DNA from: Blepharisma japonicum
Lineage: Eukaryota > Ciliophora > Heterotrichea > Heterotrichida > Blepharismidae
Reading direction: 5' to 3'
Assembly (NCBI GenBank): GCA_949751835.1
Contig: CATKHK010000037.1
Span: 1 to 64,000 of the forward strand
DNA: 64,000 nt
Shown here: positions 11,699 through 47,719 of the stretch, piece after piece
Numbering within the stretch: position 1 is the first letter of the stretch
Layout of the letters: the number at the start of each line of letters is the position of its first letter
Translations under genes and position numbers: made by a program
Notes under the pieces: generated by a model
Database searches by the model: none
What the model was told of the DNA's origin: nothing
What the model saw: only the letters and a program-made list of their open reading frames with translations

Positions 11699-11806
11699 TT
11701 GAAAAGTGAAAAAGGTCCCATACGCGCAAAAAAAAAAATCGTTAAAATTTTTTCCATCTAAATTTTTGTAACGCACTTAAGCGAATTTGAATTTCTAAGC
11801 TCAAAA

Positions 11807-14800
11807 ATGAAAAGTCTTATAAGCTTTCTAGCACTTATATGACTAGCTATTGGAGATCCTTCAAGAACTGCGAAAGACGGATACTTAGATCCTGGAAAAA
11901 TAAGATGGTGGAAAGATTCTTGGGCTCCTAATCCTATTGAGCTCTCGCAAACCAACTCTGGGTCCACTAATGTTGTGGTGACTGTCCATTTTAGGCCTCA
12001 AACATCTTTGCCGACAACTAATAACATGGGATATGTTACTGTTACTGTGCCATCAACTTTTGCAACCACAACAACTTATACCTCGGCTTCCCAGGCACTT
12101 GTTGCAAATAAAGATACTTCATTTTCATTTACTGTGACAACAGCTTTACCTTCTGCAGGAGTCTATGGGCCTTTCAAAATAGTGACTAAAACTTCATCAA
12201 CTGGACAAATCTACGACGCAAACTACGTTTTTGGTTGTGTCGCAGTTTCAGCCTCAGTTTCTTCTCCTTCTTCTAGCTCTTTGACAGTCAATACAGTCAC
12301 TTTAACCGCTACAACAGCAATTGTTGGCTCATCAGATGGACTCTATTTTACCTTTACAATTCCTTCAGGCACTAATCTTTGGAAGCATGATATTATTGAA
12401 ATAGTACCTGACAAGTACTGGACAATTCCTTCAAGCCCAACCTGTGCTTCTATAGATATTTCAGGTACTACTAACTATATCAAAGGTCCTAAAGGAGACA
12501 ATAGCCTACCTTGTGCTGTTGCTCAGTCTGGAGGGGCTAATGGAGGATATAACACTGCTAAATCAAGCTCTACTCCTGCTACAAACAGTATTTATATATA
12601 TGGACTTTCTCAAGACGTGATTATAAATTCAAGCTACCAAATCAAGCTTCAAGTTTCCAGCTTTACTCTTCCTTCTTCAGCTATTTCAACATCAAGTTTT
12701 AGTTGGAATCTGAAAATATGGAGATGGGGAACCACCAATTTGCTTGCTCAATTTGCTGGAAGTGGGCCATTGACACCAGTTGCAGGCGCTGTAACAATTA
12801 GTTCATGGGCTCCATATAATACTAATATTGTTTCAACAGATATCCCAAGTACTGGCACAACTACTGTTTTTACTAAGCTCACTTTTCAAGTAGCCCATGC
12901 CATTGCAAGTGGATCAATAGTTATTACATTTAATAATAATGCAGATATTTATAGTGGTATCTGGTGGACAGATCATTCAGACAGTGCATATGTTTCAGCT
13001 AAAGCCAAATGTTATCTGAATAGCTACGTTAAAGGTATTTCATGCAGTGTTGATACTTCTAGCTCAAAAGCAACTATAACTATAGCCTCAGGCACTACTG
13101 TGGCGGCTAATTCACCAATCTCAATTACCTTATTAACTAAACTCAGCTCAGGGGCTGGAATTACCTCAATAGTGACTACTGATGGAACTTCTTCTACAAC
13201 AATTGACCAAATTACTTCTACAACCTTATGGTCATTTAACTCTGGAGCTTCTTCAGCTTATACAAGTATGACTACTTTCCAGTTCTTTGCAGCTGCTTCG
13301 CTCACAATACCTAAAAATGCTGCATTCACTGATTCGGGAAAACAAATCGGAGGAAATATTGCTTCATCCTCTAATCAGTATTTAATGTGGTATATTCAGC
13401 CATCAACTAGCTGGTCTACATCAACCACCTTAAAAGTCAATTTGCCACTTTCTACTTCAGGTGTACAGCTGACCCAAGCCTATATTAATAGTGGTGCCAC
13501 TTATTATGACACTGAATTTTCGAGTACAGATTTAGCTTCAAGCTCATCACCTTCATCACTGATACTTGCGGCAGGTAAAAACACCCCCACCCTTGGTACT
13601 GGGACTTCAGGCCCTATTTCAATAGTTTTTACTGGAAGCTATTACCCTACAACTGGAGGTAACCAATATTTTGCTTTTGCATATGGAGATAATTCAGTCA
13701 GTACTAAACAAAACGCGCTGCCATTTGTACAATCGAACGTTGCTACTTTCTATGAGTGTTGGGCCAAGGCTACATCTACGGTTAGTTCAGCAGCTACTGA
13801 ATTCGCCAATTATGTTTTCTCAGTAATTACTTCGCAAACAGATTCTAGTTTGACTGCTGCTCCATTGTGCACTGATAATTATGCTGGAATTCCGATTTCT
13901 GTAAATTTTCACGCTTTGAATATGAAATTTAATTTTGGAGATACAACAAATTTATATTATCTAGATTTAGCATTTAGTGATGTAGGAACGAGCAATCTAG
14001 GAACAGGTGCACTTGATGGTGACCAAATCCCTGCAGTCTCTACATCGTCTGGAGTAACTCCGAAGGTGACAATCAGCTCAAAAACAGTAACTATTTCTGG
14101 ACTTGGATCTGTTAATGCTGGTGATGCAGTTGTGACATTGTTACCTTATGGAGGAGATATAAGTTCAGCTAGCTATACAGTCACTCCAACTTTCTATTAT
14201 CTTGTAGCTGGAGCTGATCCAAGCATTAAAATGGTTCTATACTCAAATGCCCAGGCTACAATCACATTTACTGCATCAAGTCTTGTAAAATTTGATGCAT
14301 CAACAGTAATAGCAAGTCCTTCAAGCCCTTCAGTTGGATATTACACTGTTGGAGGAACTTCTGTTACGACATCAATAACTTTAAAACTTGATAGCACATT
14401 AACGAGTGATGTAGTTTCAGGTTGGATCGGAATTGGGATACCTACAGGTTTTACAACTTCGTCTACTAAACTGTCCTTAGCCTCAGCTTCAGCAACAGCT
14501 TATAGCGTCGCTAAAGCAAGCAGCTCTTTTAAAGGAGGATTTATAGTTGCGCAGCTTTCCAGCAGCGTAAAAGTCGCAGGCTATTCGTCAACTCCGGCAA
14601 CAACGTCCCTCTCAATGGATCAAGGCCTCAATGCTCCTTTATCTACAGGATCAACATCAGGGGTAGGATCAGGAACTCCCACAGTATTCATAGCAGGCCC
14701 CTCAACAGGTAGCAAATGTACATGCGCATCATTAACAGCCCCATTATCAGTAAGTATAAATCCTGGAAAGATTACTTCCGATAGCTGCACATTAGATAAA

Positions 14801-17800
14801 CTCTTCACTCAAGGCTCAGACTCAGTCGATTCCACCCTTACCTTCTCATTTACAACTGCGAATCCTATTCCTACAGGTGGAAAAATTGTGATTACTCTAA
14901 CTTCAAGCGCCTGGACAGTACAATTATCAGCTCCTCTTTTGAGCTCCTGCCAAGGAGTCGGGTTTACTGATCAATCCTCATCTAAGGTACAAACGTGTGT
15001 TGCATCAGCAAGTACAGTCACTTTGACTCAATTTTCTCAGATTGCCACAGGACAGGTCAGTGTAAAACTGTCCCATGTAATCCCGACTGCCACCACTGCA
15101 GGCGCAGTAGCTTGCTTTTCATCTGTTATGACTTATGATGCAAATGGCAATGTTATAGATTCTATATCTAGTAGCTTAGCTAACACAGTTACTTTAGCAG
15201 CTTCAACTGCAGCAGGCACCACAAACACCAATTCTTTTTTATCTAAACCCTATCCAAATGTAGCTGGGGCTATGGCTGATATATATCTTACCTTTTCTTT
15301 ATCAAAAGCAGTACCTCAGTATGGTATAATATCAATTAACCCAGGATTTGTCAGCTCATTATTATACACTTCTACTGACATCTCAAGTTCCTGCTGGACT
15401 GACCAAGACTATTACTCTTGCCAATATTCAGGCAACTCAATTCAGATACAATTAAGCACTGCTCTTCCTGCAAACCAGGCAATAAAAGTATATTTAGATA
15501 TGCCTTTTACCCTTCCTACGTCCAATTCTACAGCATCAGGCTGGACAATTTCATCCTCATGGGGAGGAGTTCCAATTACAGCTGATTCTACTTCTGTCTC
15601 ACCTGCAACATTCCAGCAGACAATAGGAACTGCTGTTACCAACAAGATTTCATTCACGTCAGTCACGGCTGTTAATTCACAAACTGCAGATGAGACGACC
15701 TCCTATACATTTACTTTTACATCAGCTGTTGTGGTGGCTACTTCTGATGCGTTTGTTATTGAATTTCCTACTGAATTCAGCCCTCTTCTTGGGTTAGCCA
15801 GTGTTGTATTTCCTGATTGCTCGCCTAATAACTATTATACTACTTGCAGCTCTACAGCTTTAGGAATTGCAAGTGGGACATATTGCAGTGCTGATCATTG
15901 GAAACTTACTGTAACTGGAATTACTAAGGCGACAACTTCGACTACTGCAAGTATTGATATTACTGTGGATGGGATCCAAAACCCAGTAGCAGGAACTACA
16001 AAAGGAAAATTCAGTTTATACCAGTATGGGTCAGATGGATCAGTCAAGGCTTATTTACAGGCAGCAAGCACAATAACTATTGCAAGTCTTGCTTCAACAA
16101 CGGTTTCACTTAAAGATGCTATGGTTGATACTGCAACCTTGTCGAAATCAGCTACTTATACATTTGATTTCTACCTTTCTGCATCTACCACCTTTACTAC
16201 AGATCACACAATTTCCATCTACTTCCCCCCACAATTCAACAACAAATTAAGAAACGGAAGTACAGTACCTTGCAAATCTGTCTACTTCGACGAATCATCC
16301 TCATCTGCCAGCACCACAACAAGCAATTCTTTAAGTTCTGCAACCTCATGCACAGTATCAGGGAGCAATGTCAGTATTGGTTTCCCAAGTTCATTGACAG
16401 CTGCCACTGCAACTACCTCAAGAATCCAAATTCAGCTGACAGGTTTCTACAATCCTGAGTCAGCTATAACAAGAACAGCAGGCTGGGATGTGACTGATTA
16501 TTCCTCTTTTAGCTCAACCAAGTTTGACCAATACAGCAATAAGTTTACTATAGCAGTTAGTCAGGCGAGTAAAACTCAGATATATGCAGAAAGCTGGCCA
16601 AACCTTAACTCAGCTTATATTGGGTACACTATAGGCTCAGGTTCAGGATCTTCAACTTCTAGTAGTTCTAGTTCATCAAAAATCAACTTATTACCTGGGC
16701 AGCAGAGCTCTGATATTACTGTTTCGGTTCTTGATAGCAATAATTGGCCGATGAAATCAAAATCATTTAAGCTGACCCCAACTTCAAATGCAAATTACCC
16801 TGATAGTGGCAACCTCAAATATACATCAACTTACTATAACTTCTCTGTTTATCAGATGATTTCTCAGTTTACTTTCAGAGTATCAGCGTCAAGCAGTACT
16901 GCAACTGGAATTTATTATATCGATTGGGGAACACCTGTTGAAAAGCTTCAAGATGGAGTTTCTAGTGCTTTATATACAGCCCCAACAAGCGTGATGATAC
17001 AAGTCTGCAGCTCTTTGACTGCTATATCTATTACTGTTGACACTCTACCAACCTTTTATCAATACTATACCAGTCTTCCAATCAAAGTTTCTCTGGCAAA
17101 TGCTCCTGCTTCACAATTAATTGTAACCCCAACATTTTCTGTGGGAGGATTCACAATAACTCCTACTTCACTTACCTTTGGCCCTGATGCCAATGCTCTT
17201 TATTTCCAAGTGCGTGTTGGCTCAACCTATGTAGCTTCTACATCTACACAGCCAACCCTTAGTTTTGCATTGTCAGGAACAGATGCTGCTGCTTTTACAG
17301 CACCAGCTAAACAGACAGCAACCGTTACTACAAATTATCCTAATACCGTGGCAGTCACTCCAGTATTATCGGTCACCAAGGTAAGTGCTTCTGAAGTAAA
17401 AGTTTCAGTTACATCAACAATTGCTGGTGTTTTGTATTGGGGACTTGGGTGTCAGGGTTCTCAGGTTCTTACTTTTAATGGATTGTCATCATTGATTTCT
17501 GATCTTGTTACCCCATCTAAATCTATTCAAACGCTTCAGGAGCAATTAGCTTATCAGTATCAACATACAGAAACTGATATAGACACAACTAAAGGGGACA
17601 CTGACATTAATTCATTTTTCAGGAGAATGCATTCTCAGCATTGCCAAGAATATTGGGCTTCTTCACAGGTTATCACTACAGCAGGAGCAGCAACAATTGA
17701 TTTTAATTGGCTGATGGCAGGAACTAGCTATACTTTTTCTGCTTATATCGCCACGCGATTAACCAATAATACATCTGCTTATCCTCTAAGCACATTCAAC

Positions 17801-18592
17801 TTTACTACAGATGCAGCTGGACAATATTATAGCACATCTGTCACTTTCTCAGGAACTGTTGATTCAAGCTCAAGCAATAACATTGCTAAAGTTCTAGCTA
17901 AGAATATGGGTGTTAACCCTTCATGGCTGACTTATGTATCCTCATCCAAAAGAATGTTGGCTGATTCTTCTTCTACTTCTACGACTACAACCTTTAATTA
18001 TAATGTCCTTTCTGATAGCAGATATCCAGCCTATACTTCTTCAGGTATGATTGCTAATCTCAATACTAATCAAGCTCAGGCAACTTCTGACTTCTCTAGC
18101 ACATTATCATTAACTGCAACAACTCTAGGGACATCAACAGCTATTTCGGCTGGAACAACTCCATCATGGTCTACTGCTCCAGCAAAAACAGCGCTAACCG
18201 ACACCTCTGCGACCTTCACTGCAGCTTCTTCACAGGCTGGGACGATATATGTGTCTTGCTCTAATAATGATATCACAAACCGCATTACTTATGCATGGCA
18301 AGTCACTAACGGACTAGACGCAACTACTGAAAAAGTTCCATCAGCAAATGTAGTCAGTGTAGCTGCTACCAGTGAGACCCTTAAGGTTTCTGGATTGACT
18401 GCAGGGACTTCTTATGCTTGCTACTTCACAGCTTGCAATAATTATCCAGTAACACCTGCTTGTATTGACTATAGTTCAACTACTCCTTTGCAAAGCATAT
18501 CAATTAAGACTACTGGATCTTCAAGTAAAGATAGTGCAATTATGATGGGAGCAAGCACAGCTTTTGCCTTAATCTTAATCTTACTTAACTAA
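11807..18592 (+). CDS. Giant GPI-anchor-like surface protein 1
   Basis: A 2,261-residue secreted protein. The start is the ATG at 11807, 168 bases before the first ATG downstream of the in-frame TGA: it adds the signal peptide MKSLISFLALI-W-LAIG, in which the Trp is TGA (11840-11842) and which aligns in all three paralogues. The ectodomain is Ser/Thr-rich with regularly spaced, probably beta-sandwich segments of the type 'TFxFT...VP..G.I.I.FP', a few conserved Cys pairs (FPDCSPNNYYTTC), many N-x-S/T sites, and a conserved C-terminal region (GVLYWGLGCQGS, FFRRMHSQHC, SVTFSGTV, KNMGVNPSWLTYV). It ends GSSSKDSAIMMG followed by a hydrophobic tail ALILILLN with no cytoplasmic part, the layout of a GPI-attachment signal. 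Role: cell-surface coat or antigen, inferred. No family name recognised. Confidence 0.85.
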
Positions 18593-25907: not shown

Positions 25908-26473
25908 AGTGCTTAAGACGCTGTATTTTTCTTTTGTAAAGCTATTTTTTATTTATCCTTAATTTATCCTCTCTGTAAAGGCATGCTTCATGAGTTTTTT
26001 GGGGCAAATAAAATATGTAGCTGGCAAAAAAACGCCATATTTGGTCAGCTTTATGATGGGTTGACGACTTAAAAATACAATTTCTTCGCCTTGCACTTTT
26101 CTCAAGGATTGTAAGCTTCTTATTATTTCTGAGTCTAAAGGAAGTCTTATTTCTCCAATTCCTTTAAAAAATTTTAAATTTTTTTGTTAAAAATGAGTCC
26201 TTATGATTCTCAGCCAAAAATCTGAATTTAAATTGTAAGGTTTTAGATGTCAAATCAAAGTCAAATTTAAATCATATAGTCTTTTAGTCAGTGGTGTCTC
26301 TTTGTGCTATGCTTGCACTTTGAATCCTTCCTGGATCAGAATTTTCAAAAATTTTCGTAAATTTCAGGGCTTAAAATGTATATAATTCTTCCTTATTTTG
26401 ATTTTTTTACTTCTTTTTTCCAAAATCTTACTTAAAATACAATCACATACCTTCCGTCTTCTTCACAGGGTCA

Positions 26474-26540
26474 GGAGCTTAAGTTTTGCCTCCGGCATCT
26501 TTATAATTATAGACTTGCTCGGGAAAAGTGCTTATATATA
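26474..26540 (+). promoter_or_regulatory. Conserved upstream block of giant surface gene 2
   Basis: Second copy of the block (ttttgcctccggcatctt, tataattata, agacttgctc, tatata) starting 176 bases before the ATG; spacing to the start matches copy 1. The secondary element gtaacgcatttaagc follows at 26605-26632. Weaker homology to the other two genes continues about 700 bases upstream, so the whole 5' region was duplicated with the gene, and this block then stayed constant. Confidence 0.6.
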
Positions 26541-26649
26541 GTGAAAGATGGTGCTCATCCTTTAGGCGCAAAAATAAAAATCGTTAAAATTTTTTTGGGC
26601 TTTTTTTTGTAACGCATTTAAGCTGATTTGAATTATTCAAAACTCAAAA

Positions 26650-29600
26650 ATGAAAAGTCTTATAAGCTTCTTAGCCCTTATATGACTCGCAATGGGAGAT
26701 CCTTCAAGAATTGCTAAAGATGGATACTTGGATCCTGGAAAAGTCAGGTGGTGGAAAAATTCTTGGGCTCCTAATCCTATTGAGCTCTCGCAAACCAATT
26801 CTGGGACAACTGGTGTTACTGTCACTGTACATTTTAGACCTCAGACATCTCTCCCAACTACTGGAAATATGGGACTTGCTATTGTGACTGTGCCATCTGC
26901 TTTCTCAACCACAACAACTTATACTTCTAACTCAATGGCAATTGTGGCAAGCACTGATACTTCGTTCTCATTCACTTTATTAACAGCTTTACCTTCTGCT
27001 GGAGTCTATGGGCCTTTCCAGATTGTGACTAAAACTTCATCAACTGGGCAAATCTACGACGCAAACTACGTTTTCGGTTGTGTCGCAGTTTCAGCCTCTG
27101 TTTCAGCTTCGAGCACTTTGACAGTGAGCACAGTCACTTTGACGCCAACAACAGCAATTGTTGGCTCATCAGATGGACTCTATTTTACTTTTACAATTCC
27201 TTCAGGCACTAATCTTTGGAAACATGATATTATTGAAATAGTCCCTGACAGTCGCTGGACAATTCCTTCAAGCCCAACCTGTGCTTCTGTAGATCTTTCA
27301 GGTACTACTAACTATATTAAAGGTCCTAAAGGAGACGATAGCCTACCCTGTGCTGTTGCTCAGTCTGGAGGGGCTAATGGAGGATATAACACTGCTAAAT
27401 CAAGCTCTGCTACAGGAAACAGCATTTATATATATGGACTTTCTCAAGATGTTATTATAAATTCAAGCTACCAGGTCAAGCTTCAAGTTTCCAGCTTTAC
27501 TTTGCCTTCTTCAGCTGTTTCAGCTTCAAGCTTCCAATGGTCACTGAAAATCTGGAGATGGGGAACCACCAATTTGCTTGCTCAATTTGCTGGAAGTGGA
27601 CCATTGGCAGCAGTCGCAGGAGCTATAACAGTAAACTCATGGGTTCCATATAATTCTAATGTACAAACAACAGATATCCCAAATGCTTCTAATGCTTTTT
27701 ATATCTTTACCAAGCTTACCTTACAAACAGCTCATCCAATTTCCTCTGGATCTATTACTATTAACTTTTCTAATGCCAATATTAATGGCGGTAACTGGTG
27801 GCAAGACGCCTACAGTCCTTCAACTACAGGAACTAAAGGGTTATGCTATTTGAATATATATATAAAAGGCGTGACTTGCAGTGTGAGCAGCTCAAATCAA
27901 GTAGCAACTATAACTATTTCTAGTTCAAGCTCTGGCCTTGCTGCTAATACAGCAATTTCTATAACTCTTTTAACCGGTCTTAGCACAGGTGCTAAGGTTT
28001 CTTCAATAACTAGTAATGATGCTACTAGTTCAACCAATGTTATTGATCAATTCACTGCAGGATATTCTTGGGCGTTTAGCAGCTTATCTTCTACATCTTA
28101 TACTTATATGAATGATTTTCAGTTTTATGCAGCTGCTGGAACTTCTCCTGCAACTGGTAGTTCAGCTGGATCAATCAAATATAAAGATTCATCATCAAGC
28201 AATTGGAAATTAGGCTTGCAAATAGGTGGTAATCTTGCTGCTTCTCAATTTTTGATGTGGACTGTGTCGCCACAAACTACCTGGGTAGCCAATTATAATT
28301 TAGTTGTAAGCTTGCCCATCTCAGGATCAGGAGTGACATTGAATCAATCCTATATTAAGTCGACTGCACTGTTTTATGATGTTGTTGCGACCAGCTCATC
28401 TTCAAGCGCAGTTTCACTTAACTCTCCCTCAACCTCTACTTCTTCAGGACCAAAATCAGGAACCCCAGGATCAATTAGTATTACAATTTCTTCAAGCTAT
28501 ACTTTTTCATCAGGAAATGTTTATGTATTTGCATATGGAGACCCATCAAGCACTGATACTCAGGTAACTGCTTTGCCATATGTTACTTCAAATGTTGCCA
28601 CTCTTTATGAATGCTGGGCAAAGGCAACACCTCCTTCAGGATCTTCATCAGCAGTCACTGAATTTTTCAGTTATCCTTATTCAGTCTTTCCTGGATCAAC
28701 AGTGGATACTTCCTTAACATATGCTCCATTATGCTCAGATAAATACGTCGGAGTTCCAATTTATGCAACTTTTCATGCACTTAATCTTGCATTTAACTTT
28801 GCTGACACAACGCACCTTTACTATCTTGATATTTCTATTACAGGATCAGCAGGGTCGTCAATCCCTACTAACTTGGGCAGTGGCTTAGCTGATGGAAGTA
28901 TTTTCCCTGTAGTCTCGACTACAAGTGGGATTACTCCAAACGCCACTATTACTGGCAATGTGGTGACTATTTCAGGACTTGGGTCTGTTAGTGCAAGTAC
29001 AGCTGTCAATCTATTGATACCAAACGGAAATAAAGTATCTTTGGAAGGGAATCTGAATTTTTATTATCTACAAGCTGGAGCTGATCCTTCAATCAAGATG
29101 GTCTTATATACAAATCTCATTTCTGCAGAACCTCTTAGTTCTTCGTCTTCAACAGCATTCTCCTCAGCATCAGTTACAAGCCCTTCAGGCTCAGCTTATA
29201 CTGTAGGAGGTGCTTCTGCTACTACTATGAGTCTCACATCATCAAATGCAGCATCTAATTGGATTGGAATCGGCTTGCCTGGAGGCTTCACCTTGCCGAG
29301 TAGCTATTCTCTAACTTTAGGAACCGCATTAACACCATATGGTGTTTCTTCATCAAGCAGCACCTTTACAGGAGGATTTGTCGTTGGTTTGTTGGCAGCC
29401 TCAACCACTCTTAGTTCAACTAGCTTTACTTTAAGCAGCTTAAATGCTCCATTATCAACCGGACAAGCTGCAGATGCTAATACAAACAACAATTTTGTTG
29501 TCTACGCAACATCAACAATAGGAGCACAATGTGTAGCAATAAGCACCATTTCTAGTATTAAGGTAAGTGCTGCTACGATTACTGCAGATCAGTGCTCAAT

Positions 29601-32600
29601 TACAAATCCATACACCCAAGGGCCAGATTCAGTGGACTCAACTCTAACACTTACATTTACGACTGTAAATCCAATCCCTGCTGGTGGTAGCATTGTTATT
29701 ACTCTTTCAAGCTCATTCACTTTGTTCACCTCAAGTTCATCATTACCATTTACAACCTGCCAAGGTGTAGGATTCACTGATCAATCCTCAACTGCTCCAC
29801 AAAAATGTGTCATAAGCTCGACCACAGTTACTTTGTCTCAATTTTCTCAGGTTGCTGCTGGATCTGTGTCTGTAAAAATATCCCATGTAGTTCCTGCCTC
29901 AACTTCTGGAACCTCATTAGCTTGCTTTACAGCGGTGAATACTTATAATGCTGTAAATGGTTATCTTATAGACTCTGCGACTGGCTTGACTAATTCTGTT
30001 GCTATTTCAGCTTCTAGTGCAGTAGGCACCACAAATGGTAGTTCTTTTATATCTAAAGCCTATCCTAATATAGCAGGGGCAGCCGCTGATATATACCTTA
30101 CTTTTTCTTTGTCAAAATCAGTCCCTCAGTATGGTCTAATAACGATTACCCCAGGATTTGTAAGTTCATTAACTTCCTCCAATGGGGATCTCTCAAGCTC
30201 CTGCTGGACTGATCAAGATTATTTATCGTGCCAAGTGGTTAATAGTAACGGAATTCAGCTACAATTAAATAATGCTCTTCCTGCTAATCAGGCAATTAGA
30301 GTTTATTTGGATATGGCTTTGACCCTTCCTACCTCTAATTCTACGACTGCAGGCTGGACAATTTCATCCTCATGGGGTGGAGTTTCAATAACAGCTGATT
30401 CTACTTCTGTATCCCCAGCAACGTTCCAACAGACCATAGGAACGGCAGTCAGTAACTCTATCTCGCTAACCTCAGTTTTGCCTATTAACTCGCAAACTGC
30501 AAATGAAGCGACCTCTTATATCTTTAATTTCACTTCAGCTGTTGTGGTGGCTACTACTGACACCTTCGTGATTGAATTTCCTAAAGACTTTAGCCCACTT
30601 CTTGGACTTGCTGATGCTGTATTTCCTGATTGTTCACCTAACAATTATTATACTACATGCAGCTCGACTGCTTTAGGAATCGCAAGTTCTACTTTATGTA
30701 GCGTTGACCATTGGAAACTTACTGTGACTGGAATTACTAAGGCAACAACTTCAGCTTCTGCAAATATTGATATTACTGTGGATATGATACAAAATCCAGT
30801 AGCAGGGACAACAAATGGCAAATTCAGCTTATATCAATACGGGTCAGATGGATCTATCAAGGCTTATATACAGAAAGCAAGCGCAGTGACTATCGCAAGC
30901 CTTGCTTCAACGAGTGTTTATCTTAAAGATTCTACAGTTGATGTTGCAACTCTTGAGAAATCAGCTACGTATACATTTGATTTCTACCTTTCTGCATCTA
31001 CCACCTTTACTACAGATTACACTATCTCCGTCTACTTCCCACAGCAATTCAACAATAAATTAAGAAACGGAAGTACAGTGCCTTGCAAGTCAGTCTTCTT
31101 TGACGAATCATCCTCATCTACAAGTACAAATACAAGTCAACCTTTAAGTTCTGCAACCTCATGCTCAGTGTCAGGCTACAATGTTACTCTTGGTTTCCCA
31201 AGCTCACTCACGGCAGCGACTGCGACAACCTCTCGAATTCAACTCCAGCTGACAGGATTTTACAACCCTGAGTCAGGCATATCAAGGTCTGCAGGATGGG
31301 ATGTGACTGATTATGGCACTTTTAGCTCAACCAAATATGACCAATTCAGCAATAAATTTGCAATCGCAGTCAATCAAAATAGTAAAGTCCAGATATATGC
31401 AGAAAGCAGTTTTAATCTTAATTCAGCTTATATTGGTTACAGTATAGGTTATGGCTCAGGATATTCAACCTCTGCTAGCTCTAGCTCATCAAGAATTGGC
31501 TTGCTGCCAGGGCAGCAAAGCTCTGATATTACTGTTTCAATTCTTGATAGCAATAATTGGCCTATGAAGTCAAAATCATTTAAGCTGAGCCCAACTACAA
31601 ACCTAAATTATCCTGATAGTGGTAACCTCAAATATACCTCAGCTTACTATGGCTTCACTGTTTACCAGATGGTTCCTCAGTTTAATTTTAGGGTTGCAGC
31701 CTCAAGTAGCACAGTGCCTGGAATTTATTATATCGATTGGGGAACGCCTGTAGAAAAGCTTCAAAATGGAGTTTCCAATCCTTTATATGTTGCTCCTCTA
31801 AGTATGATGATAGAAGTTTGCAGCTCCTTGTCTGCTATATCTGTTATAGTTGATCCTCTTCCAACCTTATATCAATACTACACCAGTCTTCCAATAAGAG
31901 TATCTCTGCCAAATGCTCCTGCTTCTCAATTAATAGTCACCCCAGCTTTTTCAGTCGCAGGTATTTCAATCAGTCCTGCTTCCCTTACATTTGGCCCTGA
32001 CCTCAATGTTCTTTACTTCCAAGTTCTAGTGGGTTCTTCTTATGTAGCCTCAACATCCTCACCAACCCTCAGCTTCACATTATCAGGGACAGATGCTGCT
32101 GCCTTTATAGCACCAAGCAAGATGACAGCTACTATTTCCGCGACTAATCCTTCTATTGTTACAGCTACTGCAGGATTATCAGCCACAAAAGTAAGCTCTT
32201 CTGAGTTCAAGATTTCAGTCACAACTACAGTTCCTGGAGTTTTGTATTGGGGACTTGGATGCCAAGGTTCTTGGGTTCCTACCTTTGCTGGCCTTTCAGG
32301 TATGGTTTCTGATCTTGTAAATCCATCTAGTAGTATTCAAACTCTGCAGGAGCAATTAGCATATCAATATCAGAATACGGAGACTGATATTGATCCAACA
32401 AAGGACGCTGATATCAATGCGTTTTTCAGAAGAATGCATTCTCAACATTGCAGTGAGTATTGGGCTTCAGCACAAGTTATCAGTACATCAGGGGCTACTA
32501 TTGATTTGAATTGGCTGATGGCTGGAACTAACTATACTTTTTCTGCTTATATCGCTACAAAATTGACAAATAATACAAGCTCTTATCCTCTAAGTACTTA

Positions 32601-33414
32601 TAACTTCACTACAGATGCGGCTGGACAATATTATAGCACATCTGTCACTTTCTCAGGAACCGTTACTGCAAGCTCAAGTGGCAATATTGCCAATGTCCTG
32701 GCTAAGAATATGGGTGTCAATCCTTCATGGCTGACTTATGTATCCTCATCAAATAGAATTCTCCAAACTTCCTCAGGTTCTGGCTCGACATCTGGCTCTA
32801 CAACGACAACATTTACTTATAATGTTCTTTCTGATAGCAGATATCCAGCTTATACTTCTTCAAGCATGATCTCAAATTTAAATGCCAATCAGGCTCAAGC
32901 AACTTCTGACTTTACTAGTCTATTATCATTAACTGCTACAACTCTAGGGACATCAACAGCTATTTCAACTGGAATAACTCCATCATGGTCAACTGCCCCA
33001 GCAAAAACTTCAGTCGCTGATACATCTGCGACCTTTACTACGACTTCTTCACAAGCTGGAACAATATATGCAACTTGCTCGAGTAATAATCTCTCCGGTT
33101 ATAATACTTATGCATGGCAGGTTACTAATGGGTTAGATGCAACTACTGAAAAGGTCCCTTCAGCAAATGTAGCTAGTGTAGCTGCTACAAGTGAAAATAT
33201 TACAGTTTCTGGTTTGACAGCAGGCACTGCTTATGTGTGCTACTTTACAGCTTGCAATAATTATCCAGTGACACCTTCCTGCATTGACTATACCTCAACA
33301 ACTCCTTTGCCAAGCATATCATTTAATACTACTGGATCTTCAAATAATGACAGCAGTGCAGTAATAATGGGAGCAAGTGCAGCTTTAGCCGTTATTTTAA
33401 CGCTACTTAACTAA
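26650..33414 (+). CDS. Giant GPI-anchor-like surface protein 2
   Basis: 2,254 residues from the ATG at 26650, which gives the signal peptide MKSLISFLALI-W-LAMG; the Trp is TGA (26683-26685), the only TGA in the gene. Conserved ends with the paralogues: DPSRIAKDGYLDPGKVRWW at the mature N-terminus, TNLLAQFAGSGPL near residue 315, then a divergent central part, and a conserved C-terminal half (SVDSTLTLTFTT, FPDCSPNNYYTTC, STTFTTDYTISVYFP, FFRRMHSQHCSEYW, MGVNPSWLTYV). It ends NNDSSAVIMGAS plus a hydrophobic LAVILTLLN tail, a GPI-signal layout. In the first 300 residues it alternates between resembling copy 1 and copy 3. Likely an abundant surface-coat protein; function not shown. Confidence 0.85.
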
Positions 33415-36433: not shown

Positions 36434-36621
36434 TTTTTAATTATAAGGAAATTACGAAAAATATTCTCCATGGGAATGGCAAGTAAAAGTAAGAAATATC
36501 TCTTTTCTAATATAATAATTATTTCAAGTGCAATTTTTAAAATTCAAGAGCAAGCAGTTTTTAAGGGCTGACAGATTTCTCCTCTGCCACTTTTTAGTTC
36601 CCACCAGCAAATCCTTTATTT

Positions 36622-36960
36622 ATGTCATTAGGTCTGGGTTCTTCGAACAGCTTGAATAATACATACACTGAAGTTTCACAGGACACGAAAAGTGGAAGTC
36701 GCTTAATCATTATGTCTCAGCAAATGATTGATAAGGTGGGTTTCTTAGACAAGTAGATGGATAAAGATCTTAGTCCGAGATTCAATAAGCGACAAAAAGA
36801 AATTGTCATAAACATAATGAAAAATCAATACAAGCCTTGCTCTTTTAGGAAGATACTTATATACATATATAGATCCAACAGGTTTAGAAAAAAGCCACAT
36901 GATGTCTTAATGACCAAATGTAAACCTATCTTAACCGAAATTAATATAAAAATTATTTAA
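36622..36960 (+). CDS. Possible small basic protein, interrupted by TAG
   Basis: Divergent to the small basic gene. The frame MSLGLGSSNSLNNTYTEVSQ... runs to FLDK, meets TAG (36754-36756), and continues in the same frame as MDKDLSPRFNKRQKEIVINI... to TAA, with a strongly basic, protein-like composition. A GT...AG segment spans the TAG (gtagatggataaag, 14 nt here; 15 nt in the second copy near 58290), but splicing at either site leads into another stop, so a simple 15-nt intron does not rescue it. The second copy at about 58150-58490 lacks the ATG and has further indels. Either two short peptides, a decayed gene, or non-coding. Confidence 0.25.
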
Positions 36961-38088: not shown

Positions 38089-38998
38089 ATGGACTCTTTG
38101 CCCAAAAAGCGCTTAAGAAAAGGAACCAAAAGAAACTCCAACGCACTCCAGCGCTCTCCACTAGTTATTTCTTCCAGCACTTCTTGCATTTTCCAAGAAA
38201 CATGATGAAGCATTTGTTGAAGGATGCTTAACTATTAAAGAAGGTCGTAAAATTAATGTTTTGGGAAAAAACAAATGAAGAGACGTCTTAAATGTAACAA
38301 TTTTTTTGAATAGTAATTTTTCTGTTACCAAGATGAAAAAGAAAACATGAAAAGTTGAAAATATTGAAGAAACTAACTCCATATTGAAGGGTTTATTGAA
38401 TATTATCTACCTGGATGATTAGTTGCTTATATAATAAATTCTCATTGTAAAAGCACTCAAACTATTCAGGAAGGAGCAGCTTCAGATTATGACGAAGGGA
38501 TTAATATCTTCAATAATGAATGAATGAATGAATTCTAGAACTGAAAAAATAATCTCGATAGACCAAAAAATCGGTGAAGACACTTGCAAGGAATGCACAT
38601 TTATTGCAGTAGCGTGCGGAATTCAAAAGATTATTACTAAAAGCTTTTTAACTCCAGTGTGATCTCCATATTTGTCCTTAAATAAAGCTATGATGAAAAT
38701 AGATGCCAAGGCAATTGAATTGTTTGTAAAAAATTTGCATACTTACATCAAAGCATTTTTCAGCAAAGGACTCACTCATGCATATTATGTTATACTTGAA
38801 GAAAACAAACAGAATTGAAGGCATTACCTTCAGTACAAAAAGACAAGCTCATTATTATCATGCGCAGGTAAAACCTGATAAATTTATTCTCTACAACTCA
38901 TGGAGAAAAGAGGAAGTTCTCTATAAAGATATCAATACTTTAAATTTGAAGGGCCCGATTTCTATTTACAACTTAAGAGATAATAAAATAATAAACTA
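38089..38998 (+). pseudogene. Unrecognised broken coding region
   Basis: This stretch is less AT-biased than its surroundings and reads as protein in pieces. It opens with MDSLPKKRLRKGTKRNSNAL at 38089. A 147-codon open stretch at 38438-38881 needs four TGA read as Trp (parts: KIISIDQKIGEDTCKECTFI, SFLTPVWSPYLSLNKAMMKI, GLTHAYYVILEENKQNW). A 73-codon frame at 38778-38999 (KTNRIEGITFSTKRQAHYYH) overlaps it in another phase and may be its true continuation. No family was recognised and no catalytic motif can be claimed. The segment is absent from the second duplication unit. Most likely the relic of a host gene; coding status uncertain. Confidence 0.35.
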
Positions 38999-40309
38999 AA
39001 TTGAAATTTAAAGTTGAGAATTTCGAATTTTATAATTATTGTTTGAAAATAAACATCCTCGGGCAATTTGTATATTTAAGAATGAAAAAATCATCGGAAA
39101 ATGCCTATTTTGAAAAAATTAAAGTCTTTTGAAAGAGAAAACAAATTTTTTGAAAAATTTGTTTATTTATAATTTTTTAAATACAATAAATATTTTTTAT
39201 AGTAAGATTCTGGTTAATTAAATTACCTTGAAATGAAAACCATGAAAGAGCACTTTGCTTTATTCTCTTAGGTAAGGTAATGAAATTTATGTTTATAATG
39301 AAGGTTAAATTCTTTATCAACCTTTAATTCCTATTTCAAAAATTTAATTTTTTTTTGACTTCATAATTTCATTAATATAGATTGTCTTTAAAAAAGATTT
39401 TATCATTTCAGAATTATTTTAGATAAGAAAATTAAATAATTTTTTAATTAAAAAGATTCTCCTCTAAAAATTCAAAATCAATTTTTTTTAGGTTTTGCTT
39501 TAAGCAAATTATTTATATATTTACTTATTTTCTCTTTTAAATTTTAATTTATGCACTTCAACTTATCTTTACTATACAAGTAATTAGCATTTGCTATTCA
39601 GCTAGACTTAAATGATTTGTTTCCTGGCCAAAGAAAATTATTACATTTGCTAAATAATTTTCGAGTCTATTTTAATTGTCTAAACGTTGATATTGCGATT
39701 TGGCTTTAAAAATCTTAAGCAAAACACTTCAGCATTTCATGAAGGATCATTAAAATTTGATTTAAATATTTTATAAATATTTATTGGAAACTAATTATAT
39801 CTCCTTTTAGTGCTATTTTTGGTATTTTCAGAAAAAATAGAAGCATCTAAAGCATTAAGAAACATATAAAAGTTAATTAAAAACACAATTTTGGCAAAGA
39901 TTCAAATAATGATTAAATGATACTTATTCCAAGTTATAGACTAAAAATTACGAATATTGATGACAATGATCAAGGCCAAAAGATTAATTGAAAAATTTAA
40001 ATTAGATTTCCAAGTTTTTTAGGTTTTTTAAGTCGCTTAGACCTATGGATAGAGAAAGATGGCGTTGATATAAAGATTTTTAAAAAAATCTAAAAAGTTC
40101 TGATGCAAAAATATAAGCAAATTCATTGATATTTACCACTTTTATTACGTTCGGAAAGTCTTCTCATATCAAGATTTCTAAAAATTCAAAAAAATACTCT
40201 AAGCTAGAAAAATAACTCTCCATCTCCGAAACGGGAAATCCAATCAAAATTTTTATTGTGAGTAAATTAATTTTAATTAAATTATTCTTTAATCCATCCT
40301 TACTAAAAA
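38999..40309. other. AT-rich intergenic region
   Basis: 1.3 kb of AT-rich sequence with long T and A runs, no open frame with protein-like composition, leading into the upstream module of surface gene 3. Nothing recognised. Confidence 0.45.
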
Positions 40310-40807
40310 GGCTTATTTTAAAGTTTTAAAACAATTTCGGAATACTAATCTGATTAAAAGTCGCCATATTTGCTCTACGATTCTTGTATGCATCGACGAC
40401 CTAAAAATTGAATTTCTTCTCCTCGCTCTCATCATTAGTTTAGTAAACTCCTTATCATTTCTTAGCCTGAAGAAAGACTGATTTCTTCAAATTCCTTCAA
40501 TAATAAAAAAAAAAAAATCGTTAAAAATGAGTTCTCATGATTCCATGCCAAAAATCTGACTTTCAATTGTAAGGTTTTAAATTTCAAATTCAAGTCAAAT
40601 TCAAATCATTAAATCTTTTAGTCAATAGTTTCTTCTTGACCTTTTCTTCAGTCTTAAACCCTTCCTAAATCAGAACTTCATAATTTTTTCATGAGATTCA
40701 ACGCATTAAATGCATACAATTCTTCCCCATTTCGATTTTTCTTCAATTTTTTCACAAAAATACATTTAGAAAAAATTCCCATAGCTCTCATACTCTTCTA
40801 AGGCACG

Positions 40808-40868
40808 AGAGCTTAAGTTTTGTCTCCGGCATCTTTATAATTATAGACTTCCGCAGAAAAGTACTTAT
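40808..40868 (+). promoter_or_regulatory. Conserved upstream block of giant surface gene 3
   Basis: Third copy of the family element: ttttgtctccggcatctt, tataattata, agactt; it has one C-to-T change in the GCCTCCGG core and lacks the tatata string at the end, carrying ttatttta instead. The companion element gtaacgcatttaagc is at 40936-40964, close to the ATG at 40982. Confidence 0.6.
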
Positions 40869-40981
40869 TTTAAGTAAAAGATAGAAAAGGTCCCATAGGT
40901 GCAAAAAACAAAATCGGTAAAATTTTTTCAGGCCAATTTTTGTAACGCATTTAAGCGAATTCGAAGTGTTCTAATTCAAAA

Positions 40982-43900
40982 ATGAGAAATATTATAAGCT
41001 TTCTAGCTCTCATATTGTTTGTTTCTGGAGATCCTTCAAGAATTGCTAAAGATGGCTACTTGGATCCTGGAAAAATCAGATGATGAAAAGATAATTGGGC
41101 TCCTAGTCCTATTGAACTCTCTCAAACCAATTCTGGGTCCACTGGTGTTACTGTCACTGTACATTTTAGACCTCAAACATCTTTGCCGACAACTGGGAAC
41201 ATATGAATTGTTATTGTGACTGTACCATCAGCTTTTTCAACCCCAACAATTTATACTTCTAGCCTAATGGCAATTGTAGCAAGTACTGATACTTCTTTTT
41301 CATTCTCTTTATCAACTGCTTTACCTTCCGCAGGAGTCTATGGACCTTTTCAGATTGTGACTAAAACTTCATCAGCTGGGCAAATCTATGATGCAAACTA
41401 CGTTTTTGGTTGTGTCGCAGTTTCAGCCTCAGTTTCTTCTCCTTCTTCTAGCTCTTTGACAGTCAATACAGTCACTTTAACGGCTACAACAGCAATTGTT
41501 GGCTCATCAGATGGACTCTATTTTACTTTTACAATTCCTTCAGGCACTAATCTTTGGAAGCATGATATCTTTGAAATAGTCCCTGACAAGTACTGGACAA
41601 TTCCTTCAAGCCCAACTTGTGCTTCTGTAGATATTTCAGGTACTACTAACTATATCAAAGGTCCTAAAGGAGATAATAGCCTACCTTGTGCTATTGCTCA
41701 GTCTGGAGGAGTTAATGGAGGATATAACACTGTTAAATCAAGCTCTGCTACAGGAAACAGCATTTATATATATGGACTTTCTCAAGATGCTATTATAAAT
41801 TCAAGCTATCAGGTCAAGCTTCAAGTTTCCAGCTTTACTTTGCCTTCTTCAGCTGTTTCAGCTTCAAGCTTCCAATGGTCACTGAAAATCTGAAGATGGG
41901 GAACCACCAATTTGCTTGCTCAATTTGCTGGAAGTGGACCATTGACACCAGTCGCAGGAGCTATAACAGTAAACTCGTGGGTTCCATATAATTCTAATGT
42001 GCAGCCAGCAGATATCCCAAACACTTCTAACTCTTTTTATATCTTCACCAAACTTACTTTGCAAACAGCTCATCCAATCACTATAGGATCCATAACTATT
42101 ACCTTTTCCAATACAGATATTAATAGGGGCAAATGGTGGCAAGACGCAGCAAATGAAAACTTAGGGTCAAATAATCAAGGGCTATGCTATTTGAATACCT
42201 ATGTTAATGGTGTAACTTGCAGTGTAAGCAGCCAAACTGTAGTAACTATCTCTTTTGCTAGCCCAAGTTCTGGTCTTGCTGCTAATACAGCAATTTCTAT
42301 AACTCTCTTAACCAAACTCAGTGCAGGTGCAAAGGTTTCATCAATAGTAAGCACTGATAATGTTTCTTCTAAAAATATTGACCAATTTACTTCAGGGTAC
42401 TCTTGGACTTTTAGCAGCTTATCTTCTTCGTCTTATACGTCAATGGTTGATTTACAATTTTATGTAACAGTTGGGACTTCTGCTAATAGCACAGGTTATG
42501 GAACAGTCAATTATGAAGATTCAAATTTTGTAGCAGGTCTACAAAAAGGAGGCTATCAATCTACTTCGCAATATTTGATGTGAGAATTGTCGCCGCAAAC
42601 AACTTGGGCAGCCAATTATAATTTGGTGATAAGCTTATCTTTTTCAGGCTCAGGGGTGCAATTGAACCAACCCTATATTAAATCAACAGCTCGCTTTTTA
42701 GACGCTCTATGGAAAAACGGCGTTTCCACTCCACAAGCACTGAGTTCATCTGGAGGCTCAACTTCTTTAGGGCCAGCATCTGGAACTCCAGGATCAATTA
42801 CCATTCTAATGTCTCAGAGTAGGGCTCCAGCATCAGGAAATTATTATATATTCGCATACGGAGATCCATCAACCACTGATACTCAGGTAACTGCACTCCC
42901 ATTCGTCACTTCAAATATTGCAACTTTCTATGAGTGTTGGGCCAAGGCAACACCTCCTTCAGGAACCTCAGGAAGCTCTGAATTTTTCAGCTACGTTTAT
43001 TCAGTATATCCTGGATCAACAACAGATAGCAGTTTAACTTATGCTCCATTATGCTCAGATGGCTATGCCGGAGTTCCAATTTCTGTAACTTTTCATGCAC
43101 TTACACTTCCTTTTAACTTTGCTGACACAACTCGCCTTTACTATCTTGATGTTTCAATTAAAGGATCATCATCTTCAATCCCTTCAAACTTGGGCAGTGG
43201 CTTAGCTGATGGAAGCAGCTTCCCTGTAATCTCGACTACAGCTGGTATTACTCCAAACGCAGCTATTTCTAGCAATGTGGTGACTATTTCTGGACTTGGC
43301 TTTGTCAATGCTGGTGAAACTGCCAACGTAATGATACCGAACGGAAATACAGTATCTTTGGCAGGGGGTCTTACTTTTTATTATCTGCAAGCTGGAGCAA
43401 ATCCTTCAAATAAGATGGTATTGTATACAAATACCATTTCTTCAGATCTTCTTACTTCTACAAGCACTTCAAAAGCATTTAGCACAATCTCAGTTTCAAG
43501 TCCTTCAAGTGCAGCTTATACTGTAGGAGGCTCTTCTGCTACTTCTATTAGCCTCACAGCATCAAATTCAATATCTAATTGGGTTGGAGTCAGTTTGTCT
43601 GCAGGATTCACCTTGCCTAGCGGTTATTCATTGAGCTTAGGAGGTAGCACATTAAAATCATATAGCATTTCTTCATCAAGTAGCACCTTTATAGGAGGGT
43701 TTGTAATTGGCTCGGTTTCAGCCACAACTAGTCTTAGTTCAACTAGCTTAAGTTTAAGCAGCTTAAATGCTCCATTATCTACAGGACAAAGCTCAGACAA
43801 TAATAGCAATGGAAAATTCACTGTCTTTGCCACAGGAGCGCTAGGAGCAGTATGTGTAGCTATAAGCCAAGTTTCTAATAAAGTAAGCTCTGCTAAGATT

Positions 43901-46900
43901 ACAGGAGATCAGTGCTCAATTAGTAATCCATACGCCCAAGGGCCAGATTCAGTTGACTCTACTCTAACACTTACATTTATGACTCTAAATCCAATTCCTG
44001 CTGGTGGTAGCATTGTTATTACTCTTTCAAGCTCATTTAATTTATTTACTTCAACTTCATCATTACCATTTACAACCTGCCAAGGTGTAGGATTCACTGA
44101 TCAATCATCAACTACTCCACAAAAATGTGTGATAAGCTCATCAATGGTTACTTTGTCTCAATTTTCTCAGGTTGCTGCTGGATCTGTGTCTGTAAAAATA
44201 TTCCATGTTGTTCCTGCCTCAACCTCTGGAAGCTCACTATTTTGCTTTATAGCTGTGAATACTTTTAATGCTGTAAATGGCTATCTTATAGACTCTGCGA
44301 CTGGCTTGACTAATTCTGTCTCTATTTCACCCTCTAGTGCAATAGGCTCCACAAATGCCAGTTCTTTTACGTCTAAAGCTTATCCAAATATAGCAGGGGC
44401 AACCGCTGATATATATCTTACCTTTTCTTTATCAAAAGCAGTGCCTCAGCATGGCCTCATAACAATTACTCCAGGATTTGTAAGCTCATTAACTTCCTCA
44501 AACGGAGATTTCTCAAGTTCCTGCTGGACTGATCAAGACTATTTATCTTGCAATATTGTTAATACCAATGGAATTCAGCTGCAATTAAGTAATGCCCTTC
44601 CGGCAAATCAGCCAATAAGAGTTTATTTAGATATGGTGATTACCCTTCCTTCCTCTAATTCTACGACTACAGGCTGGACAATATCATCTTCATGGGGAGG
44701 AGTTTCAATAACAGCTGATTCTACTTCTCTAACCCCAGCAACATTCCCACAGACTATAGGAGCAGCTGTGAGCAATACTATTACGTTAACCTCAGTTTTG
44801 CCTATTAACTCACAAACTTCAGATGAAACGACTTCCTATACTTTTAATTTTTCGTCGAGTAAAACAGTGGCGAGTTCTGATGTATTTGTGATTGAGTTTC
44901 CTAAAGACTTTGGCCCTCTTCTTGGACTAGCATATTTGGTTTATCCAGATTGTTCGCCTAATAATTATTATACTACGTGCAGCTCAACGGCTTTAGGAAT
45001 TGCAAGTGGGACTCTTTGTAGTGTGGATCATTGGAAGCTTACTGTGACTGGAATTACTAAAGAGACAACTTCACCTTCCACAAATATTGATATTACTGTG
45101 GATATGATCCAGAACCCTGCAGCAGGAACTACTAATGGAAAATTTAACTTATATCAATATGGCTCAGATGGATCAATCAAGGCTTATGCCCAGAAAGCCA
45201 ATACAGTGACTATTGCAAGCCTTGCCTCAACGATACTTTATCTTAAAGATGCGATGGTTGATGTGATAACTCTTGAGAAATCAGCTATATATACATTTGA
45301 TTTCTACCTTTCCTCTTCCACTACCTTTACTACTGACTACACCATCTCCATCTACTTCCCACAACAATTCAACAATAAATTAAGAAATGGAAGCACAGTG
45401 CCTTGCAAGTCAGTCTTCTTTGATGAATCATCCTCATCTGCAAGTACCACAACAAGCCAACCTTTAAGTTCTGCAACCTCATGCTCTGTATCAGGCTACA
45501 ATGTCACTCTTGGTTTCCCAAGCTCTTTGGCCTCAGCCACAGCAACGACATCAAGAATTCAACTTCAGCTGTCAGGCTTCTACAACCCTGAGTCAGGTAT
45601 ATCAAGGACTGTAGGATGGGATGTGACTGATTATGGCACTTTTAGCTCAACCAAGTTTAGTGTATATAGTGATAAGTTTGCAATAGCTGTCAATCAGAAC
45701 AGCAAAAGCCAGATATATGCAGAAAGCAGCTTTAACCTTAACTCAGCTTATATTGGATATATAATCGGTTATGGCTCAGGATATTCAACTCTTAGCAACT
45801 CTAGCTTATCAAAAATTAGCTTATTACCTGGCCAGCAAAGCTCCGATATCACTATTTCGATTCTTGATAGTAATAATTGGCCTATGAAATCAAAATCATT
45901 TAAGCTAAGCCCAACTACAAACGCAAATTACCCTGATAACGGTAACCTCAAATATACATCAGTCTTCTCTAATTTCACTATATATCAGATGGTTTCTCAG
46001 TTTAATTTTAGAGTATCAGCTTCAAGCAGCTCAGCGTCTGGAATTTATTATATCGATTGGGAAGCACCTATAGAAACACTGCAAAGTGGAGTTTCCAATC
46101 CTTTATATGTCGCCCCTATGAGTATGATGATAGAAGTATGTAGCTCCTTGTCTGCTATATCTGTTAATGTTGACCCTCTACCAACCTTCTATCAATACTA
46201 TACCAGTCTTCCAATCAGGGTATCTCTGCCAAATGCTCCTGCTTCCCAATTAATTGTAACTCCAGCATTTTCAGTCGCGGGATTTACAATCACCCCTGCT
46301 TATCTATCCTTTGGCCCTGATGTTAATTCTCTTTACTTTCAAGTCGTCGTTGGCTCTTCCTTTGTATCCTCAACAACCACACAGCCAACCCTTAGTTTTA
46401 CTTTGACAGGGACAGATGCAGCTGCTTATGCAGTACCAAGCAAGATGACAGTGACTGTCACTACGGTGTACCCTACTACTGTGACAGCTACCCCAATATT
46501 ATTAACCACCAAAGTAAGCGCTTCTGAGTTCAAAATTTCAGTCACAACTACGCTGCCTGGAGTTTTGTATTGGGGACTTGGATGTCAAGGCTCTCAGGTT
46601 CCTACCTTTTCTAGTCTTAGATCTTTGGTTTCAGATCTTGTGAATCCATCTAAATCTATTCAAACTCTTCAGGAGCAATTAGCTTATCAATATCAACATA
46701 CGGAGACTGATATTGATCCAACTAAAGGTGATACTGATATCAATTCATTTTTCAGAAGAATGCATGCCCAACATTGCGGTGAATACTGAGCATCTTCACA
46801 GGTTATCAGTACGTCTGGTGCAACTGTAGATTTAAATTGGTTGATGGCAGGAACTAATTATACTTTTTCTGCTTATATTGCGACAAAATTGACTAATAAT

Positions 46901-47719
46901 ACAGCTGCTTATCCTCTAAGCACTTATAACTTCACTACAGATGCGGCTGGACAATATTATAGCACATCCGTCACTTTCTCAGGAACAGTTACTGCAAGCT
47001 CGAGCAGCAATATTGCTAATGTCCTGGCTAAGAATATGGGTGTCAATCCTTCATGGTTGACTTATGTATCTTCATCAAGTAGAATGCTCCAAACAACCTC
47101 TGGCTCTACAAAGACAACGTTTACTTATAATGTCCTTTCTGATAGCAGATATCCAGCTTATACTTCTTCAGGAATGATCGCAAATTTAAATACAAATCAA
47201 GCTCAGGCTACTTCTGATTTCTCTACTTCATTATCATTAACTGCTACAGCACTTGGGACATCGACAGCTATTTCAACTGGAACAACACCATCATGAATAG
47301 CTTCTCCAGCAAAAATTTCAGTCGCTGATACATATGCGAATTTCTCTGCATCTTCTTCACAAGCTGGAACAATTTATGCTACTTGCTCAAGTAATAACCT
47401 CGCAGGCCACATTACTTATGCATGGCAAGTTTCGTTAGGAATAGATGCAACTACTGAAAAAGTTCCTTCAGCAAATGTCGTTAGCGCTGCTTCTGTAACT
47501 GAAAGCATTAAAGTTTCAGGATTGACTCCTGGGACTGCTTATATTTGCTACTTCACAGCTTGCAATACATATCCTGTTTCACCTTCTTGCATTGATTATA
47601 CCTCTACTAATCCTTTGCCAAGTATATCTTTTACCACTACTGGATCTTCAAATAATGATGGTGCAACTATGATGGGTGCAAGCGCAGCTTTGGCTTTAAT
47701 CTTAATACTGCTTAACTAA
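40982..47719 (+). CDS. Giant GPI-anchor-like surface protein 3
   Basis: 2,245 residues in one frame, provided UGA is Trp: seven in-frame TGA (41081-41086 twice, 41204, 41891, 42581, 46787, 47294). Five align with TGG of the paralogues (KIRWW, KIWRWG, LMW, EYWASSQ, PSW); no in-frame TAA/TAG was found. Signal peptide MRNIISFLALILFVSG, then the same Ser/Thr-rich beta-type ectodomain, conserved Cys pairs (PDCSPNNYYTTC), FFRRMHAQHCGEYW, MGVNPSWLTYV, and a GPI-type tail (NNDGATMMGAS then LALILILLN). It uses TGA for Trp far more than copies 1 and 2. Its closest relative is the deleted copy at 59551-60641. Surface coat or antigen role inferred. Confidence 0.85.

Follow-up and report, generated by a model that had tools for sequence, protein, structure and literature searches.

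A multigene family of putative giant GPI-type surface proteins with a central block of separate ancestry in a Blepharisma-like macronuclear genome

The stretch of DNA analysed here (the window) comprises the initial 64 kb of contig C37 (423,575 nt), which belongs to an assembly of 45.2 Mb in 224 contigs. Three giant genes, referred to as w1, w2 and w3, are placed on its forward strand, each behind a conserved upstream flank (the two centre types are described below):

11207..11806, forward strand: conserved 5′ flank of w1, candidate promoter region (72% identity to w2 and w3 over 600 nt)
11807..18592, forward strand: w1, intact gene for a putative giant GPI-type surface protein of 2261 aa with a type I centre (open reading frame, homology)
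26050..26649, forward strand: conserved 5′ flank of w2, candidate promoter region (72% to w1, 73% to w3)
26650..33414, forward strand: w2, intact gene for a putative giant GPI-type surface protein of 2254 aa with a type II centre (open reading frame, homology)
40382..40981, forward strand: conserved 5′ flank of w3, candidate promoter region (72% to w1, 73% to w2)
40982..47719, forward strand: w3, intact gene for a putative giant GPI-type surface protein of 2245 aa with a type II centre (open reading frame, homology)

The full frames of w1–w3 are open when TGA is read as tryptophan; under the standard code the leader is lost in w1 and w2, and w3 falls into pieces. A search for three units of the telomere repeat CCCTAACA gave 77 forward and 91 reverse matches in the genome, with none for the reversed control, and the forward matches listed were situated at most about 420 nt from a contig start or, on C4, at the very end. 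Both the reading of TGA as Trp and the telomere repeat agree with the report on the 41-Mb macronuclear genome of Blepharisma stoltei (PMC9942806). An incorrect genetic code was rejected as the explanation for the broken frames, and we treat the genome as a heterotrich macronuclear one, Blepharisma-like and with TGA read as Trp.

The original prediction of three intact paralogues of about 2,250 aa was borne out. The proteins are homologous end to end, with amino acid identities from first to last residue of 71% (w1/w2), 68% (w1/w3) and 80% (w2/w3). The predicted leader, Ser/Thr richness and GPI-like tail were also seen in all three. Ser and Thr together account for 29.9–31.5% of residues, and each protein has 26–27 Cys (about 1.2% in w2). 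The N-terminus carries a hydrophobic run that, read by eye, resembles a signal peptide, while the C-terminus consists of a small-polar stretch and a hydrophobic tail closed by a single Asn. This tail is the sole strong run common to the three hydropathy profiles, which show one borderline internal run in w2 and one in w3. Taken together, these features point to a putative surface location and GPI anchor. Profile self-comparison of w2 revealed diverged internal repeats with a spacing of ~150 aa at residues about 350–450 and 1000–1560 (hhalign probability 85–97% for the best seven pairs). In Pfam, w2 and w3 showed weak fn3 matches close to the C-terminal end (15.8 and 18.8 bits, cut-off 25), and the structure model of the C-terminal region had a low pLDDT of 41. 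As the 600 nt upstream of the genes are 72–73% identical in w1–w3, they constitute a candidate promoter region common to the copies; the 3′ flanks show 50–52% identity (shuffled control 45–46%).

Downstream of w3, blastn comparisons revealed the remains of a further copy within a larger duplication:

59551..60641, forward strand: 3′-end relic of a w3-like gene, made up of three pieces with two internal deletions (89, 80 and 87% nt identity to w3)
56785..64000, forward strand: segmental duplicate of blocks of 35282–52661, most of the surface gene missing (blocks 88–92% identical)
35282–37840 and 56785–59375: duplicated block (within the 88–92% range)
47324–48720 and 60274–61631: duplicated block (within the 88–92% range)
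48845–49489 and 62050–62692: duplicated block (within the 88–92% range)
51431–52661 and 62821–64000: duplicated block (within the 88–92% range)

What had been predicted to be a dead copy at 59551–60641 is indeed the 3′ end of a w3-like gene lying inside this segmental duplication: its pieces match the final quarter of w3, and the ~5 kb before them are gone. The duplication of the w3 neighbourhood also carries a small-protein gene and a malectin gene. Four small proteins of 110–154 aa are encoded between the surface genes, at 22601–23065 (−), 36008–36433 (−), 57551–57976 (−) and 61721–62053 (+); identity to the first of these is 68–70%, and at least one pair was duplicated together with the surface genes. 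They look winged-helix-like by eye, and gave neither a Pfam match over the cut-off nor a PDB match by sequence. The window further contains duplicated genes with WD40 and pentapeptide repeats (2–9107 (−) and 19561–21948 (−); Pfam on two, copies with 70–94% nt identity), as well as a gene with malectin and laminin-G-like domains and Cys-rich stretches at 51669–55601 (+) (Pfam), whose second malectin copy at 63008–64000 (+), with 90% nt identity, is located in the same segmental duplication as the relic.

To estimate the extent of the family, we used seven protein searches of the genome and retained the best-scoring candidates of each. Together with the relic, and after merging by hand, these correspond to about 43 places on 18 contigs. 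Arrays are found on C37, C144, C21 and C96. Dispersed copies show 34–44% identity to w2 and, within what was searched, one full-length copy each is present on C99, C77, C4, C124, C11, C68 and C49. The remainder includes copies truncated at contig ends (C144, C186 and C213 have one each), two places on C116 with longer-than-usual frames, and fragments, of which those on C66, C62, C12 and parts of C96, C144 and C162 are known from the search with the centre alone. For alignment we used 22 nearly full-length ectodomains; 232 positions are invariant among the first 17 aligned members. A hydrophobic leader and a hydrophobic C-terminal tail were present in the 21 GPI-type members whose ends were read (17 + 4), and in two of the four read later the leader starts after a downstream Met.

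Searches with these sequences returned no name for the family. For w1–w3 and the ectodomains of C116, C162 and C49, no Pfam family exceeded its cut-off, fn3 at 18.8 bits being the best; w2 and the copy on C99 had no NCBIfam match over the cut-off. Searching PDB by sequence gave no match at E ≤ 1 with an 8-row profile and one match at E 0.038 with a 3-row profile. Two short peptide patterns matched 73 times in GTDB contigs (none confirmed by tblastn) and 52 times in IMG/VR contigs (none confirmed), a type of search which distant relatives can escape. In the openly available full-text literature on surface proteins and antigens of Blepharisma, heterotrichs and Stentor and on REJ domains in ciliates, no published description of the family was found by title or start of abstract among the matches listed, and a full-text search for Blepharisma together with "GPI-anchor" found no paper. 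These data support the original prediction of an unnamed multigene family of giant proteins, putatively secreted and of GPI type. Both its genome-wide extent and the ancestry of its centre, described below, go beyond what could be seen from the window.

One relative differs in architecture. At C116:73858–86307 we found a 4149-codon open frame that begins with the family ectodomain (about 2,100 aa), continues with ~970 aa containing 137 Cys in Cys-rich repeats, and then has a REJ domain (PF02010, E 2.7e-30, 105.8 bits, cut-off 25). The frame also shows a PKD match below its cut-off and several hydrophobic spans; in the Pfam scan of a longer version of the protein, REJ was not among the matches. 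The second place on C116 (60.8k) has an open frame of 2767 aa, which is likewise longer than usual. In w1–w3, Pfam detected no REJ at E ≤ 1, and Cys-rich repeats are also absent. REJ and Cys-rich repeats are extracellular in polycystin-1-like proteins. If the same holds here, the family ectodomain joined to them would be extracellular too, and the fused relative thus lends support to such a location.

The paralogues had been predicted to combine conserved ends with a divergent centre, and this description proved correct. Its basis is a block with an ancestry of its own:

27625..29949, forward strand: central cassette of w2, about codons 326–1100, with counterparts in w1 and w3 (informative sites in 25-codon bins, sliding identity; uncertainty of about 25 codons at the 5′ edge and about 50–75 codons at the 3′ edge)

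Type I centres are carried by w1, C144_41k and C144_21k, and type II centres by w2, w3, C186, C144_57k and the rearranged C144_30k, so that both types are present in the arrays on C37 and on C144. Comparison of type I with type II in three cross-type pairs gave 48–51% amino acid identity in the centre and 76–88% at the ends. Between C144_41k and C186, nucleotide identity is 76–99% up to codon 350, 47–67% over codons 351–1100 and 83–95% over codons 1101–1750. We then scored synonymous sites in quartets, using only codons with the same amino acid in all four sequences, and counted those grouping the sequences by array, by centre type or in the third way. For the main quartet (C144_41k, C186, w1 and w2) the N flank gave 10:2:7, the centre 5:47:3 and the C flank 30:6:8. 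Grouping by centre type was thus supported by 47 of 55 sites in the centre, as compared with 2 of 19 in the N flank and 6 of 44 in the C flank; in the N flank, grouping by array was only modestly ahead of the third grouping (10 vs. 7 sites). Three further quartets, covering codons 1–1000 only, gave 17:1:7, 8:2:4 and 13:1:5 in the N flank and, in the same order, 5:50:2, 2:42:3 and 5:48:3 in the centre. Convergent amino acid selection as the origin of the two centre types was ruled out, since codons for identical amino acids show the same switch at synonymous sites.

One breakpoint maps close to codon 326, the other to the interval of about 1075–1175. Both are not far from module borders (325 and 1124) that had been set by hand earlier, which is a suggestive coincidence. 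Maximum likelihood trees of the N block and the centre are in conflict (delta lnL 127 and 905). KH, SH and RELL rejected the exchanged tree both ways, with values of 0 for the N-block tree on the centre data. AU rejected it for the N block, and gave p 0.055 for the N-block tree on the centre data, a value that is odd beside the delta lnL. The exchange test covered one subclade. The centre of C37_129k is more distant, groups with type II in the tree of this block and may represent a third, older form; "two types" therefore applies to the recent copies. Synonymous divergence, with site totals back-calculated from Nei-Gojobori counts, was lower in the centre than in the flanks for two of the recent pairs, at p 1.5e-9 and 0.0016 (p 0.15 in the remaining one), as if the centre had been copied more recently, which would agree with a separate ancestry. 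C144_30k (C144:30000–38500) contains an extra inverted piece of codons about 548–759, 90–94% identical to C144_57k and C186, and lacks codons about 1134–1985. As further centre fragments occur elsewhere on C144, the region has been rearranged in other ways too. These analyses show a mosaic ancestry, with the centre as a block of separate descent.

To compare protein change in the centre and the flanks, we determined pN/pS from Nei-Gojobori counts with our own script:

C144_41k/C144_21k, recent pair: centre 0.91 vs. flank 0.22, p 5.6e-7
C186/C144_57k, recent pair: centre 1.39 vs. N flank only 0.52, p 0.0033
C144_57k/C144_30k, recent pair (C144_30k is broken downstream): centre 1.47 vs. N flank only 0.28, p 5e-10
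w1/C144_41k, older pair: centre 0.50 vs. flank 0.29, p 3e-5
w2/w3, older pair: centre 0.51 vs. flank 0.24, p 4.5e-9
w2/C186, older pair: centre 0.49 vs. flank 0.31, p 0.0007

The centre exceeded the flank in all six pairs, i.e., the centre block of an otherwise constrained giant protein changes faster at the protein level. In the three recent pairs the estimated ratio in the centre was near 1 or nominally above it.

Codon use was compared on a scale set by the four tubulin genes themselves. Codon adaptation was 0.43–0.44 in w1–w3 and in the three WD40 genes of the window, and 0.71–0.77 in the tubulin genes. High expression of w1–w3 thus found no support in codon adaptation, which is not raised above that of the neighbouring WD40 genes, and the avoidance of TGA is therefore the only hint of it. 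TGA makes up 1/32 of the Trp codons in w1, 1/32 in w2 and 7/31 in w3, between 0 and 18/43 in other family members, 30/39 in the three WD40 genes, 11/19 in the malectin gene and 0/16 in the four tubulin genes. These differences are a weak hint that long-term expression might vary among the copies. The sole TGA of w1 and of w2 is codon 12, within the leader (11840–11842 and 26683–26685). All 10 copies read with a Trp at this place have TGA there, and six of them (two partial) have TGG at all 164 other Trp codons seen. The codon-12 TGA may be tolerated since stopping there wastes little, or it may act as a translational gate.

In our reading, which we regard as probable, the family encodes giant, secreted, GPI-type variable coat or recognition proteins, with a centre diversified by point change and non-allelic exchange. 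The proteins would be built partly of diverged, beta-rich modules of ~150 aa and most likely be GPI-anchored at the cell surface. The N-terminal ~325 and C-terminal ~1150 residues would form a constrained scaffold, and the middle ~775 codons would encode the variable, probably exposed part, presumably the recognition face. Point changes, under selection that is diversifying or very relaxed, could supply new variants, as could non-allelic exchange (by gene conversion or crossing over) in which the centre passes as one block from a copy in one tandem array to a copy in another; such exchange would result in two deep centre types common to the arrays. The whole may function as a variable coat or recognition system analogous to the ciliate immobilisation antigens. 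GPI anchoring, exposure of the centre, the coat or recognition role and any switching of expression are what we infer from these patterns, and the codon adaptation of w1–w3 argues against a very abundant coat. The original interpretation, in which variant expression was a suggestion, is supported in part.

The same data have to be weighed against other explanations. Instead of a switching coat, the proteins could be receptors for adhesion or recognition, in mating or in contact with prey or partners, with many members acting together, the variable centre binding partners, the REJ relative as the signalling form and the GPI forms as co-receptors or decoys. The 4149-codon frame, in which the ectodomain is joined to Cys-rich repeats, REJ and hydrophobic spans, would fit such receptors, as would the second longer-than-usual frame on C116 and the 232 invariant positions among 17 members, a scaffold that suggests a maintained common function. 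Yet recent tandem duplicates, relics and exchange of the centre are equally expected of a coat family, and we hold the receptor explanation to be possible, though somewhat doubtful. A mating-type or gamone-receptor role was also considered (PMC10892320); the evidence speaks neither for nor against it.

Constitutive structural proteins of the cortex, cyst wall or secreted matrix, whose centre has a relaxed constraint and changes place through ordinary ectopic recombination between repeats, are an unlikely explanation. Ser/Thr-rich beta modules and the single full-length copies on seven contigs (within what was searched) would suit them, and the centre pN/pS of about 0.5 in the three older pairs also fits relaxed constraint. 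However, pN/pS of 0.9–1.5 over about 680–775 codons in the recent pairs exceeds plain structural need, and so does the block-wise sharing of two deep types across arrays. That the mosaic is an assembly artefact, produced by similar tandem copies being collapsed or made chimeric in the contigs, is highly improbable. Tandem arrays are hard to assemble, and copies on C144, C186 and C213 are cut by contig ends; yet type I and type II centres differ by 33–53% of nucleotides (C144_41k vs. C186), too much for ordinary mis-joining of reads, both types occur on each of C37 and C144, and w1–w3 reside on a 424-kb contig. The variable coat or recognition system remains our preferred reading. A bolder version of it, which we offer as speculation with little expectation that it holds in full, is that a heterotrich lineage possesses a variable-coat system of its own, with no sequence relationship to the Cys-rich antigens of Paramecium and Tetrahymena, with a ~775-codon cassette moved between arrays that lie on different chromosomes, perhaps while the new macronucleus develops, and with the ectodomain used also in a REJ/polycystin-like receptor that could read it.

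Fixed ends with a fast-changing middle third that is exchanged as a block are a pattern usual in recognition or antigen molecules, and the sharp edges of the cassette provide a direct handle for expression and binding tests. Polycystin-1/REJ-type receptors are resembled by the C116 relative in its combination of ectodomain, Cys-rich repeats, REJ and hydrophobic spans; w1–w3, in contrast, have a GPI-like tail instead of REJ or Cys-rich repeats. According to PMC9788069, the surface antigens (SAgs, serotype proteins) of Paramecium are high-mass, GPI-anchored products of a multigene family; their N and C ends are conserved, their centre is less so and has high dN/dS, and they show cysteine periodicity throughout, with more than 10% Cys. 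The present family is similar in its conserved ends and its variable centre with higher pN/pS in six of six pairs, and differs from that account in having 1.2% Cys (w2) and a beta-rich module of ~150 aa as its repeat. Tetrahymena, a free-living ciliate, has Ser proteins with a GPI-type tail encoded in tandem arrays of related genes (PMC4136848); the tail, here predicted, and the arrays are points of likeness. A Ser-type block (six Cys within 120 aa) was found in none of the three window copies and in 3 of 22 members, one block each. The mismatch with Cys-periodic immobilisation antigens anticipated in the original prediction is therefore confirmed, and with this periodicity absent the family may work like the Paramecium and Tetrahymena antigens without being a member of either. 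The role of antigenic variation in free-living ciliates is called an unsolved question in PMC9788069. A second family with fixed ends and a fast, exchangeable centre, lacking Cys-rich repeats and placed on the heterotrich branch, would suggest that this signature is convergent and selected.

A parallel for the exchange comes from Plasmodium falciparum DBLMSP and DBLMSP2, for which PMC10919680 describes a segment that falls into two deep lineages; one lineage is common to the paralogues, a pattern explained by non-allelic gene conversion. Here, too, two deep centre types are spread among paralogues. The two cases are likened by pattern, a relation in sequence not being expected, and they differ in that the Plasmodium work, as given there, concerns population variation of two genes, whereas ours concerns paralogues of one assembly on several contigs and ~775 codons of a 2,250-aa protein. 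The family thus has an evolutionary signature known from variable surface antigens on a sequence basis for which no name was found.
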